Positions 58,729 to 64,000 of a stretch of DNA of 64,000 nt are shown here, piece after piece. This stretch comes from Oceanimonas sp. GK1. GTDB lineage: Bacteria > Pseudomonadota > Gammaproteobacteria > Enterobacterales > Aeromonadaceae. The stretch spans positions 3,117,001-3,181,000 of the forward strand of contig NC_016745.1 in assembly GCF_000243075.1 (NCBI RefSeq). Direction: 5' to 3'. The position numbers and the translations under genes are program-made. The notes beneath the pieces were generated by a model that did no database searches, was not told the origin of the DNA, and saw nothing but the letters and a program-made list of their open reading frames with translations. Every line of letters begins with the position of its first letter. Within the stretch, counting starts at the first letter, position 1.

Positions 58729-58752
58729 GCTATTAACCGAAAGCACCCTCGC

Positions 58753-61572
58753 TTAGCGAACTCTGCGAAGCGGGGTAAACATCCAGCCACCGCGCAAAGC
58801 CATAAAGCGTCCCTGGCTGATCTCACCAGTGGCCATTAAATCCCCCAGCATGGTATCTCTGGTGTAAGGGCTGCTGGTTTCAAAGGCCATCACATAGTCG
58901 CATACATACCCGGCCTGCCCTCTGTCGTCTGCACAGCCCAGTTTTTCAAAACGAGTGATACGAGCACTCACCGACTGTCCATGACCTGCCGCCATGATAG
59001 TCAGGCAACTCATGGCCCTTAAAGGATCATTCTGGAAGTCACCTCTTTGGCAGCGCTCATACTGACTTTGCAGGTTGCTGTTAATCTGATCCAACTTCGC
59101 TTTGACAGCAAAGAACATATCTTCTGCGCTGGGCGCCCCCGGTATTTGCTCTGTTGAATGATCAACCAGCCCTACCGAACGCAGCTCCAGTTGCTCAGTG
59201 GCCTTCCTGACTGCCATTGCCAATGGCGTTACCCCTATCAGATCTTGCTCATCGACATAACGCAGTGCAATACCACGAATCATCCTTTCGGGGTTGCCAT
59301 CTCCCGGTTTGGCCTCAAAGAGCATGGCACTGATTGCACTTTGAATCTGATCATTTTCAATCATGACTCTGCGCCGTTTATCAAGAGCAGGAATGATGTC
59401 GAAATCAATGCGTTGTTTAATCGAAAGCGGCAGATTGCTTCTGAGTTGGCTCAGTCGTCGCTGATGATGAGTCAAGGCCGCCAGAGATTCGGGTGACATA
59501 CGGCTTTCAGCTAGCTCCGTCTGTGCCTGCAGCAACTGCGGTGTCAGGACCTTCAAGGCCTTATCACTGGCCAGCTGAGTTAACTTTTGTTGTAAGTCTG
59601 CAGGAAGGCGAAGCCCTTCGGCTTCATCAAACAACTGCTTTAGCCGTACCAAAGTTGAGTTATCCTGAGCCATATTAGGAATACGTTCTACACTCAGCAT
59701 AAATTCGGCCAGTGTAATTGATCGCCGTTTGCCACTGATAATTCGATTCATTCTCTCTAGGTCGGAAGCGTTCAGCTCAGCTTTTTTACTGCGTAATTCC
59801 CGCTCAATGGTATTAACCTGCGCCAGAGAAGCACGGTTATCATTCAGCGATGCTATATCGGCCATTTTTTCTTTCAACCACAGCGCGGTCTGACTACGAT
59901 TCATTATTTGTGCCTGCAGCCGTTCATATTCAAAGTCACGATCAAAAATATCGGCCAACTTGAATGGGCGCGGGTCATTCACTCGCCTTGAACAACTCTG
60001 AGCAAGCTGGTAGATGGCCATACGCTCCACTTCTGTGGTCAACATCAAGGAAAGCCCGAAAACCGGCTCAAACACATCATCTTCCACCAGTGGTAATGCG
60101 GCGATCTGCATGTCGGTCCCTGTCATTCTACTGATCTCATGCTCGGTGCCAAAAGGAGTTGCCCAGTCAAGCAGAACCTGACACTGCTGATCGAGCGAAT
60201 GCACCTGCGCCAGTTCGCCCCCCAAACTCCCCATAGACACCGCCGGCGCTTCGCCACGCTGAATGGCAGCAAGGGCAGCCCCCTGCAGTGGCAAAAGCTG
60301 AAACGTATCATCCTGATGATGCCGATTACGGCGGGTAACGTGCAGCACCTGATTTTCATCAGGTTCCAGCAATATAATAAAAGGGTCACGCAAGTAATGT
60401 GCAGGAAGGTTGCTGAATAGTCCTTCCGCCCGTTCTACTCCCAGAGGGACATAAACGATTTTCCCATCAGCCAGTGTGGTCAGCGGCTGCAACCGATAAA
60501 CGTAACGATCTTGCTGAACGGGTGGCTCGTCCATCGGTGCCGAGGCGGAATAAAGCCCAAGCGGCGCATGATTATCCGAGGCCAGGGTCAGGGTTATCTG
60601 TGTTACATTGGGCAGCTCGCTCACCCACTGTGAAACAGGCACATTTTGCTTCCGGGCTCTGCGGTTAATATAACCAGCCCAGGTGCCTTCAATTGCTCCC
60701 CCAGAATAGTCCGGAAGAAAGGCGTCGCTACTACGCTGCAGACTAATGCTATTGCAGTGGTAGTTCACTGGCAGACCATCCACCTGGCCTGAAAGCTGGT
60801 CTCCGTTAGGCGACACACTTAAGTTTACGCCAAAGCGATTTTTACTATTGCTTAGCCACATACGATGACCAAGAGATAGCTTTCCGCTGTTATCCGCATG
60901 ACCAGACGCAAGCCCATGAAGCTGAACGAATTCCTTGCTGTGTGGCCAGTCAAGAAAGTAACTGCCAATCAACTCATTACCATGCTGAAACAGTGTCAGC
61001 CGATATGGCCACTGAGCCTCATTTTTACAACTGATATTGCCTTCCCATACTCCTTGCAAAACTCCCCCACTGGCTGAAGTAACCCCGACTGCAGATGGTA
61101 AAAAGGCGGGTGCGCCCTCACGCTGAGCCGAAAAATTGCCGCACCCTCCTCTAATTTTTCCCTCCATGTAGAAACCATTACTGTGAAGCTTTCCATCAAA
61201 ACCAAGGGCTGTATACCCCTCGGGTCGCTTAATCCATTCCTGTGGAGTAAAATGAAACTCCTTCGACGCCTCATTAAAACGCCCCAACACTCGAAAAACA
61301 CCCTCTTCATTGGCCGTGTCAAAAACGGCAAAACGAAACTCTCCTTGCAGGAGTTCACCCCGCTCATTATTAGAAGGATTAACAAGCAATGAAAATGGGT
61401 TATCGGAAATGGAACCACAGTCGTAAGTTCCGGACCATCGCCCTGTCAGTTCACCGGCCGAAACCGCTCCGGCGAATAATAAGGCGAAAGTCAGCACCAG
61501 CAGTCCTCGCACAGAGAACATCAAAATAACCCGCCTAAAAAATACAAGCTCGCACCGGATAACTGACTGCAT
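58753..61572 (-). CDS. Large secreted protein of unknown function with duplicated Cys-rich modules
   Basis: Not recognised. From the ATG at 61572 (GGAG seven bases upstream) it has 939 residues, with a hydrophobic segment near 22-38 ending AVSA, a likely signal peptide. Other starts are an ATG at 61623 overlapping the previous stop (TGATG) and one at 61521. Two similar modules start GxWxG near residues 43 and 174, each with a Cys soon after (52, 182) and a closing Cys (144, 273), and each followed by an AFLP segment; a third GTWAG block lies near 297. The middle (about 480-800) is polar and largely helical. The C-terminus has a four-Cys cluster (RCQRGDF to YVCDYVMAFE). It forms an operon with the next gene upstream. 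Confidence 0.75.
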   Translation of the reverse strand: MQSVIRCELVFFRRVILMFSVRGLLVLTFALLFAGAVSAGELTGRWSGTYDCGSISDNPFSLLVNPSNNERGELLQGEFRFAVFDTANEEGVFRVLGRFNEASKEFHFTPQEWIKRPEGYTALGFDGKLHSNGFYMEGKIRGGCGNFSAQREGAPAFLPSAVGVTSASGGVLQGVWEGNISCKNEAQWPYRLTLFQHGNELIGSYFLDWPHSKEFVQLHGLASGHADNSGKLSLGHRMWLSNSKNRFGVNLSVSPNGDQLSGQVDGLPVNYHCNSISLQRSSDAFLPDYSGGAIEGTWAGYINRRARKQNVPVSQWVSELPNVTQITLTLASDNHAPLGLYSASAPMDEPPVQQDRYVYRLQPLTTLADGKIVYVPLGVERAEGLFSNLPAHYLRDPFIILLEPDENQVLHVTRRNRHHQDDTFQLLPLQGAALAAIQRGEAPAVSMGSLGGELAQVHSLDQQCQVLLDWATPFGTEHEISRMTGTDMQIAALPLVEDDVFEPVFGLSLMLTTEVERMAIYQLAQSCSRRVNDPRPFKLADIFDRDFEYERLQAQIMNRSQTALWLKEKMADIASLNDNRASLAQVNTIERELRSKKAELNASDLERMNRIISGKRRSITLAEFMLSVERIPNMAQDNSTLVRLKQLFDEAEGLRLPADLQQKLTQLASDKALKVLTPQLLQAQTELAESRMSPESLAALTHHQRRLSQLRSNLPLSIKQRIDFDIIPALDKRRRVMIENDQIQSAISAMLFEAKPGDGNPERMIRGIALRYVDEQDLIGVTPLAMAVRKATEQLELRSVGLVDHSTEQIPGAPSAEDMFFAVKAKLDQINSNLQSQYERCQRGDFQNDPLRAMSCLTIMAAGHGQSVSARITRFEKLGCADDRGQAGYVCDYVMAFETSSPYTRDTMLGDLMATGEISQGRFMALRGGWMFTPLRRVR

Positions 61573-61622
61573 AAATACTCCACTAAAGATTTGGCAATAA
61601 TAGTCAGATGACGCTATCAACA

Positions 61623-64000
61623 TCAAAAGGCGATACTGCTCTCCTTAGTTTCTTCAGACGACACTTCACTTAGCAGCTCATCACTGCGTTCATAACTTTC
61701 CGCAAACAATTTGGCATATCGACGCTGGTCGTGCAGCCAGATCACTATTTCATCATGATCCTGAGTGGGGTTAGAATAGCGGGTCTGCCGGGTTGGTGTG
61801 ACCGGATTCAGGGGCTGAGTAATACTGGCTCCCAGCATCAGTGGACAGAAACTTTGTTGCCCGTATATCTGGCTGACCTCATCATTGCTTCCAATAAACC
61901 TGAAATTACCCGTGGCTATATCGGGGTAGCGATGCTGACCAATCGAGCTGGGCGGAGTAGCCTGCTTGTCACCATCCATCCAGAAACTTTCATTACGTAT
62001 CGTAACTCCCTGACACATCTGACTGGGTTCAAATTCAGCCCAGATGAAATCAAGGCCGCTACGACCGAAGCTATTGGTTGTACGAGAAAATATCGGCGAT
62101 CCATAGCGCTGCTCTAGCGATGACTTAATTCCAATCAGGTTAATGCTTTTTGGAGAGAAACGCATTTGCCGGCGAATAGCCACCACCTTACCAGATGCTG
62201 CCGGAGGCTCATCAAACAACGTAATCATTTCCTGTTCGTTCTCAGAAATATACATTCGACCGGAGCTGTAAGCTTCCAGCTTGCCTGCCAGAGTAGTGGT
62301 CTGGTGCACACGGTCTGCAACCAGCATGCGTCCCACCGGCATATGTTTGCGGATAAGCAGCTCTGCCTCATCAAAACTCATTCCCAGCTTAATACCGAGT
62401 ATGTCCAGATCTGGCTTCGATTCGGGATCCGGTGCCGATAGCAATGCAACCGGTAAGGATAAGGGATTGGCGAGTTCAAGTTCGAACCGCACCTCGCCAG
62501 TGTCGCGATCAACTAACCGGGCAGCCAGAGTCCTGGCCTCAAACAACAGGGTGTTGGCGGGATTGGCGACCGGCTCATCAGGAGGAGATCCCAAAGATAA
62601 CCCAAAGCGTTGGGCAAAGGGCTGAGCCTCACGCAGGGCTTCAAGCCAGGAAGTATCTGGCCAGACCTCGGGTACTGTGGCACCGGTTGGCTGCAGCTCA
62701 ATCTCCAGTACCAGGCCACTTCTTATCTTCCGGTGATCAGCTTTCAACACCGGCAGGCGGTCAATGCGGATCAAATCACGATAATAAATTGCCTTATTAC
62801 CGGCGCCCTGCTTAAGCACCTTCTGCATTGCTCGACAGTAAGGATCTTCATGACCACTACATTCATAGCGAGGGCCGTTACCACGATTAGCAATAAAATC
62901 GGGGCTGTAATTCGAGTTACGCAACCACAACACCGAATCTGGGCGCGCCCAAGAGACACCCAGAAAATCACACAGTCTGAGCTGCATGCTCAGGCTTTCA
63001 GTCAGCGCTTCGCCACGCTCCTTGCTTCGCCGTGCCTGATCACAGGTAATACGGTGAGACTGATTACCATAAACCTCATTCTGTGCCACGCCATTATCAA
63101 AACGGAGCCTCACGGTCAGCCGTTCGGGCAACTGCGCAATGCGTTTCATACTCCAGGCTTTAAACTCGGCCAGCCGCTCCGTCAGTTGTTCCGGTGCAGG
63201 CGGCTGAGAAAAATCGGTGAAAAAACGCCCGCCAGGAACAGGTGCCGGGGCTACTTTCTCATAACTGAAACGACTGAGCATCATGCGCCTGAGCATGGCG
63301 TCATCTACTGTGTCCGGCAGATATTTCAGCTGCAGCAGGTCAGCCACCTCGGCAGAAAACGGTTGCGGACTATCGGTTTTCGCTGGCTTAACTAAAGCGG
63401 GTCCGGAAGGTACCGGCTCTGTGGGCATAACCTCAAAGGTGGTTGATGCAAGCGACTGCCTCTGTTGGCCAGCAGTTTTGACAAAAGCTTTCGCTGACCT
63501 GGGTACAGCTTCAATCACAATCAAAGGCGTGCCGGATGAGGCCCTCTCAAGACGAATACTGCCCATCTCAAGGCCGGCGGCAAGTGTCAGAAACTCTTCC
63601 TTCTCTGTTGACTTTGGTGCCAGCACAAGGGTATATGCGTCTCTTGGCTCAGGCAGTACCATCACCAGTTCTACTTCCTCATCAAGTCCGAAAACCTGCC
63701 CCTTCCCCCAGCGGCGCGGGATAACCAGACGGTCTTCAGACACCTGCAAACGCCTGGAGAATTCCTCGTACTTTTTCACACTGCTGGTGCCGGGCTTGGC
63801 AAACACAAAAACCTGACTACCATTCTCCTTGCCTGTCAGGTAGTCTCTACTCGCATGATTGGTCTCAATCCACAGAGTGTCCGGCAACGCGGCTGCCCGG
63901 GCCCGGGTCCACTCGGCAAAGTTGGTAATCAGCCATGAAGGCACTACCGCATCGCGATCTCGCAAGGCCAACGTTAAATCCGGAGGAAAGAATGCAGCCC
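61623..64000 (-). CDS. Large protein of unknown function with BamE-like C-terminal part (5' end outside window)
   Basis: The frame stays open to the edge of the window (AAFFPPDLTLALRDRD upstream of position 63971), so the gene begins beyond 64000 and only the last 793 or so residues are seen. It is not recognised as a whole. Near the C-terminus, LDILGIKLGMSFDEAELLI followed later by LEQRYGSPIF recalls the GMsxxEv...yGxP pattern of BamE/SmpA-like domains, common in periplasmic proteins. A Pro/Thr-rich linker lies about 185-215 residues into the visible part, and a Cys-containing block (PRYECSGHEDPYCRAM) in the centre. Its stop overlaps an ATG of the next gene (TGATG). Confidence 0.7.
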   Translation of the reverse strand, partial: AAFFPPDLTLALRDRDAVVPSWLITNFAEWTRARAAALPDTLWIETNHASRDYLTGKENGSQVFVFAKPGTSSVKKYEEFSRRLQVSEDRLVIPRRWGKGQVFGLDEEVELVMVLPEPRDAYTLVLAPKSTEKEEFLTLAAGLEMGSIRLERASSGTPLIVIEAVPRSAKAFVKTAGQQRQSLASTTFEVMPTEPVPSGPALVKPAKTDSPQPFSAEVADLLQLKYLPDTVDDAMLRRMMLSRFSYEKVAPAPVPGGRFFTDFSQPPAPEQLTERLAEFKAWSMKRIAQLPERLTVRLRFDNGVAQNEVYGNQSHRITCDQARRSKERGEALTESLSMQLRLCDFLGVSWARPDSVLWLRNSNYSPDFIANRGNGPRYECSGHEDPYCRAMQKVLKQGAGNKAIYYRDLIRIDRLPVLKADHRKIRSGLVLEIELQPTGATVPEVWPDTSWLEALREAQPFAQRFGLSLGSPPDEPVANPANTLLFEARTLAARLVDRDTGEVRFELELANPLSLPVALLSAPDPESKPDLDILGIKLGMSFDEAELLIRKHMPVGRMLVADRVHQTTTLAGKLEAYSSGRMYISENEQEMITLFDEPPAASGKVVAIRRQMRFSPKSINLIGIKSSLEQRYGSPIFSRTTNSFGRSGLDFIWAEFEPSQMCQGVTIRNESFWMDGDKQATPPSSIGQHRYPDIATGNFRFIGSNDEVSQIYGQQSFCPLMLGASITQPLNPVTPTRQTRYSNPTQDHDEIVIWLHDQRRYAKLFAESYERSDELLSEVSSEETKESSIAF

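Follow-up and report, generated by a model that had tools for sequence, protein, structure and literature searches.

An operon for three predicted envelope proteins, with support for horizontal acquisition, between a UvrD-like helicase gene and hppD in Oceanimonas sp. GK1

At the end of a 64,000-nucleotide stretch of the Oceanimonas sp. GK1 genome (3.5 Mb; positions 3117001-3181000, the whole stretch being hereafter the window), two long genes lie in DNA poorer in GC than its surroundings, which raises the questions of what they encode, how far the unit extends and whether it was acquired. Both minus-strand ORFs are present and overlapping, as an earlier reading of the letters (hereafter the sequence-only reading) had described them: the overlap is TGATG, in which the stop TGA of gene B (61625-61623) takes in the first base of the ATG of gene C (61623-61621), and an additional ATG of gene C, preceded by GGAG, lies at about 61572. 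The same reading suspected a unit longer than the window, and the genome sequence past 64000 proved it right, giving gene B in full (1378 aa, window-equivalent 61623-65759; L002 4623-8759, where L002 position plus 57000 is window position) and recovering a third gene, A, which precedes B at a spacing of 17 bases, so that the gene order is A-B-C (Table 1). The sister genome, which shares the block, is that of Oceanimonas marisflavi (G002, NZ_QAGM01000002.1; Aeromonadaceae), against whose orthologues the long frames have dN of 0.07-0.17 and dS of 0.55-0.61; dN far below dS points to purifying selection, indicating that they are real genes. Purifying selection and the overlap or 17-base spacing among the three genes support an operon.

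Table 1. Positions, in window coordinates or their equivalents beyond 64000, of the genes, predicted domains and block boundaries
Feature	Position	Strand	Description	Basis
Gene C	58753..61626	minus	957 aa as listed from TTG; predicted exported protein	
Gene B, in-window part	61623..64000	minus	upper long ORF, continues beyond 64000	
Gene A, outside the window	65777-66613 (L002 8777-9613)		278 aa predicted lipoprotein, glycine zipper and SH3_3	
B, PG_binding_1 (PF01471)	about 65193-65321			34.8 bits vs cut-off 23 (1.9e-8)
B, YDF module	64248-64745		within hypervariable residues 201-500	
B, first "LLxL...RFF...FxxWsxxRxxxLP" (FxxW) module	63692..64000	minus	runs past 64000, limits approximate	family motif listing
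B, second FxxW module copy	62982..63389	minus	limits approximate	family motif listing
B, conserved C-terminal domain	61626..62420	minus	about 265 aa	alignment across family
C, first "WxGxYxC" domain	61141..61449	minus	about 100 aa, residues 60-162	family profile and alignment
C, second "WxGxYxC" copy	60775..61059	minus	degenerate, residues 190-284	family profile, iE 6e-5
Putatively acquired block	58731..64000 in window		left boundary about 58731 (58730), just upstream of hppD	blastn vs G007, G013, G009, G005 and G003, and boundary sequences
Right boundary of the block	about 66733-66748, outside window		at end of UvrD-like gene	

The less GC-rich composition noted in the sequence-only reading is borne out by both GC and codon usage, which over 58.7-64 kb are atypical rather than ordinary. 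In 1-kb windows GC is 0.48-0.55 over 59-64 kb and 0.56-0.68 everywhere else in the 64 kb; the surroundings are at about 62% GC, and the low-GC block stops near 66.6-66.7 kb. The GC3 values of C (0.497), B (0.454) and A (0.484) are three of the four lowest of 53 ORFs, for which the local mean is 0.746 (sd 0.10), and the adjacent helicase gene stands at 0.82. The O. marisflavi orthologues are equally low in GC3 (0.46-0.50), and the relatives in G001 and Paracoccus are near 0.7.

Comparison with the genus placed the block in the interval between the UvrD-like gene and hppD, a variable-cargo site that ranges from 228 bases to 12.5 kb. Both flanks are collinear with the window in G007 and G013, where the interval is only about 760 bases and contains a small ORF resembling an endonuclease, by inspection of the DUF559 type; it shrinks to 346 bases in G006 and 228 bases in G012, and reaches 2.9-10 kb in G005, G009 and G003, which carry GntR, amidohydrolase or ABC-transporter genes. 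These last gene types recur at the site in several species, and beside A-B-C in O. marisflavi. Gene order is conserved in O. marisflavi, the only genus member sharing the block there, with A-B-C adjoining the same helicase gene. Of the 23 genus members searched, only 2 have B or C at this site, and the sole occurrence elsewhere is at a different locus of G001, which has a diverged A-B pair. Atypical composition, this narrow distribution, and an interval that is near-empty or differently filled in relatives support horizontal acquisition of the three-gene operon, which the sequence-only reading had proposed, and the combination of atypical composition with absence from the syntenic site in relatives is that of a genomic island. 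Conserved flanks with cargo differing per species are shared with variable-cargo chromosomal hotspots in general; the difference is that the flanks here are a UvrD-like helicase gene and hppD, with no integrase among the block ORFs, no tRNA gene at the ends, and no direct or inverted repeat of 9 bases between them. The clean near-empty sites in sister species would make the operon directly deletable or comparable.

An acquired block could also be a phage or prophage remnant, and among the PHROGs matches of B only those to the wall-binding parts of endolysins are notable. However, scans of 50,697 phage records and of IMG/VR gave zero matches, and neither an integrase nor a phage gene was seen in the block, so that we regard a phage origin as extremely improbable.

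The sequence-only reading had suggested an envelope system, and the signal peptides, lipobox and domain matches of the three proteins agree with this. Protein A has a lipobox (LLGC) without Asp at +2, a glycine zipper (PF05433, 37.1 bits against a cut-off of 24.2; 3e-9) and an SH3_3 domain (PF08239, 2e-10). Lipobox and glycine zipper together are the features of a glycine-zipper outer-membrane lipoprotein, as which A is predicted, and it shares them with the 17-kDa antigen and SlyB-type lipoproteins of PF05433; it differs in adding SH3_3 and a C-terminal Cys-pair tail, and in sharing an operon with B. For A, no curated NCBIfam equivalog scored above its cut-off.

Protein B begins, by inspection, with an ordinary N-terminal signal peptide, and its N-terminal domain, ending in "CPQ", is common to a 461-aa exported protein of G411. 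Signal peptide and PG_binding_1 match together make B a predicted peptidoglycan-binding periplasmic protein; as in other proteins of this kind, PG_binding_1 occurs once or twice close to the N-terminus in B and several relatives, but the remaining 1000 or so residues of B belong to no named family, and none covering them was found in Pfam, NCBIfam or PADLOC. The two window genes had been described as having no recognisable function; this holds for C and most of B, which are without a named family, but not for the PG_binding_1 part of B. The YDF module of several B relatives matches DUF4852 (PF16144) repeatedly and at the same position, but below threshold: the best match is 17 bits against a curated cut-off of 22.8, no member reaches it, and a literature search found no paper naming DUF4852. 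PDB sequence searches with profiles of the YDF module and of the C-terminal domain gave nothing credible. TasL, a large envelope lipoprotein described as having fibronectin type III repeats and as connected with a T6SS island (PMC9040878), was set aside as a counterpart, there being no sign of either feature here.

The two halves of the conserved C-terminal domain of B are marked by "DILGxxLGMxxxEAE" and "LxxKYGxP...W...C", respectively, and the tail ends in L or F in all 11 different family members (P about 3e-10 on composition), with I, L or V two residues before the last in 8 of them. Such a tail resembles an outer-membrane beta-signal or a C-terminal peptide of the kind read by PDZ domains. 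Because the GMxxxE and YGxP motifs had been called BamE-like, we considered whether this domain is a BamE relative, making B an accessory of outer-membrane protein assembly whose L/F tail mimics the beta-signal. The motif is real and conserved across the whole B family, but a relationship to BamE found no support: PF04355 finds the true bamE in each of ten genomes yet leaves B unlisted, even at E 10, profile-profile comparison by hhalign gives a probability of 1.9%, and the PDB search gave no hit. BamE is, moreover, a small lipoprotein of the outer membrane (about 110 aa), against the 1378 aa and ordinary signal peptide of B. A BamE-type role is very unlikely on these grounds.

Protein C carries the signal peptide that the sequence-only reading had suspected in the downstream protein (MFSVRGLLVLTFALLFAGAVSA before GE, about 61521-61456; mature protein from 61455). 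Its two WxGxYxC domains are followed by a long stretch that a low-confidence model renders as helical and then by a conserved Cys-containing C-terminus. C has no family in Pfam, NCBIfam or PADLOC, a PDB sequence search with its profile gave nothing credible, and the WxGxYxC domain has no PDB or Pfam match. The orthologue in O. marisflavi, 78% identical, was the only match in a genome-contig scan with C; relatives at 24-27% occur in Paracoccus, where they are solitary, and in Shinella, where they appear to be. The WxGxYxC profile matches at nine other loci (4e-8 to 3e-16), including otherwise unrelated exported alphaproteobacterial proteins, one of which, by inspection, has Sel1-type repeats. 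It recurs as an unnamed domain in exported proteins of Alphaproteobacteria (L076-L081, L046-L048), and nine positions of the alignment are invariant. AlphaFold2 gave mean pLDDT of 36.5 for C (900 aa) and 31.2 for the 782 aa of B inside the window, which include the C-terminal domain compared with BamE; each run had one orthologue as alignment, and the prediction was uninformative because only that close orthologue was supplied; with no fold predicted, known structure or activity is confined to PG_binding, SH3 and the glycine zipper.

Relatives of B extend well beyond the genus. A profile of its C-terminal half found them in 7 of 289 alphaproteobacterial genomes, at about 1080-1550 aa with one shorter, and more were found on plasmids of Pseudooceanicola, Leisingera and Paracoccus seriniphilus; three plasmid-borne relatives outside the sequences of the profile match the C-terminal domain at 2e-25 to 9e-18. 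Other searches of phages and plasmids for B gave no match, and full-length B against the class returned mostly unrelated PG_binding proteins, those read looking like lytic transglycosylases. The C-terminal domain is the hallmark of the B family. Most members also carry one to three copies of the YDF module, and PG_binding_1 recurs in the relatives from G001, G703, G755 and G1016. The A-B pair recurs at the G001 locus, where the C-terminal part of B has diverged to about 27%; the pair is followed there by a 388-aa exported protein (L043 9888-11054) whose C-terminal half resembles a second B C-terminal domain. In G703, the gene upstream of the B relative encodes an exported protein of 1294 aa (L053 12038-15922) that combines PAN and PG_binding_1 domains with several Asp-rich repeats ("DGDDRIYI").

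In G849 and P. seriniphilus, an M15 D-Ala-D-Ala carboxypeptidase-type gene stands directly before the B relative, with overlapping ends (L070 6285-11440 and L084 5093-9756, respectively). The P. seriniphilus B-like protein seems to carry an LprI-like stretch as well.

We tentatively favour, as plausible but short of probable, the reading that A-B-C is an acquired operon making an outer-membrane- and peptidoglycan-associated assembly, likely a periplasmic scaffold docked on peptidoglycan. The localisation of all three proteins is predicted from their sequences. A would sit in the outer membrane and touch the wall, B would dock on peptidoglycan and serve as scaffold or adaptor, its variable YDF module binding some ligand or partner, and C would be a co-translated soluble partner of B. 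Given that some Alphaproteobacteria pair the equivalent protein with a peptidase of the cell wall, the likely job of the assembly would be to position or hold back an enzyme acting on the wall, or else to strengthen the wall under stress. We infer this link with wall enzymes from the domain content and the M15 coupling, and the limitation of that coupling to 2 of about 13 B relatives counts against it. Since alphaproteobacterial relatives of B and C are mostly found apart rather than together, it is the operon itself that would argue for a B-C complex.

Comparison of the two B orthologues, from the source Oceanimonas and O. marisflavi, revealed a mosaic. Residues 201-500 are only 31-42% identical, with dS very high or saturated (dN/dS of 0.64/2.39 for residues 201-300 and 0.70/1.85 for 401-500; 301-400 saturated), whereas dS is 0.04-0.06 in residues 601-800, ten times below that of A, C or the helicase gene (0.55-0.61), and an ordinary 0.6 or so in the remaining outer parts. 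Such a scarcity of synonymous differences over 200 codons has a probability of about 1e-23 at the background rate, by a rough binomial with the site count approximated. There being too few synonymous differences in residues 601-800, part of B was probably exchanged between lineages by recombination, beside a deeply diverged module.

A mosaic of this kind might be expected of a surface receptor, adhesin or self/non-self recognition protein, in which an exposed middle module is swapped under diversifying or frequency-dependent selection and its flanks are homogenised by recombination. The lowest GC3 in B (0.25-0.35) falls in the variable stretch, and the O. marisflavi module is as similar to that of alphaproteobacterial G703 (34%) as to the source module, though the two Oceanimonas modules are sisters in the tree (92/94). 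However, within the variable part dN/dS is below 1 wherever an estimate of dS is possible, B has no known adhesin or surface-display domain and looks periplasmic from its PG_binding match, and two known alleles do not separate selection from recombination. We therefore consider a receptor unlikely. A more elaborate proposal, that B is a peptidoglycan-anchored recognition protein whose recombined middle module sets an envelope response (to a ligand, a neighbour's wall fragment, a phage or a bacteriocin), with A and C completing an undescribed three-part sensor or guard that spreads via the hotspot, is less likely still. If the modules did prove to be swapped recognition parts, they would be determinants of envelope specificity of a new type; if not, A-B-C would be an ordinary accessory envelope operon.

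The variable module, together with low GC, acquisition and very large proteins, could also belong to a secretion- or effector-linked island, such as a polymorphic toxin with export parts, and the sequence-only reading had offered secretion as an option. That option was not sustained: Pfam, NCBIfam, PADLOC and PHROGs returned zero secretion components or toxin domains in the block, none was seen in the relatives' neighbourhoods, and the conserved end of B is its C-terminus, the reverse of polymorphic toxins. A secretion-linked island is highly improbable as a result.

As a putative wall-associated assembly, the operon is a solid but modest addition to known acquired envelope systems, most of its domains being unnamed in current databases. 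In particular, three recurrent exported domains, namely the YDF module, the C-terminal domain of B and the WxGxYxC domain, are unnamed in the libraries searched and are linked to predicted peptidoglycan binding and, at some loci, to a wall peptidase. Further low-GC3 genes lie nearby beyond the window, comprising a gene pair at L002 13700-14748, one member of which looks by inspection like a nucleotidyltransferase type (GC3 0.447), and a gene for a HipA-like protein, also by inspection, at L002 18026-19384 (GC3 0.589).
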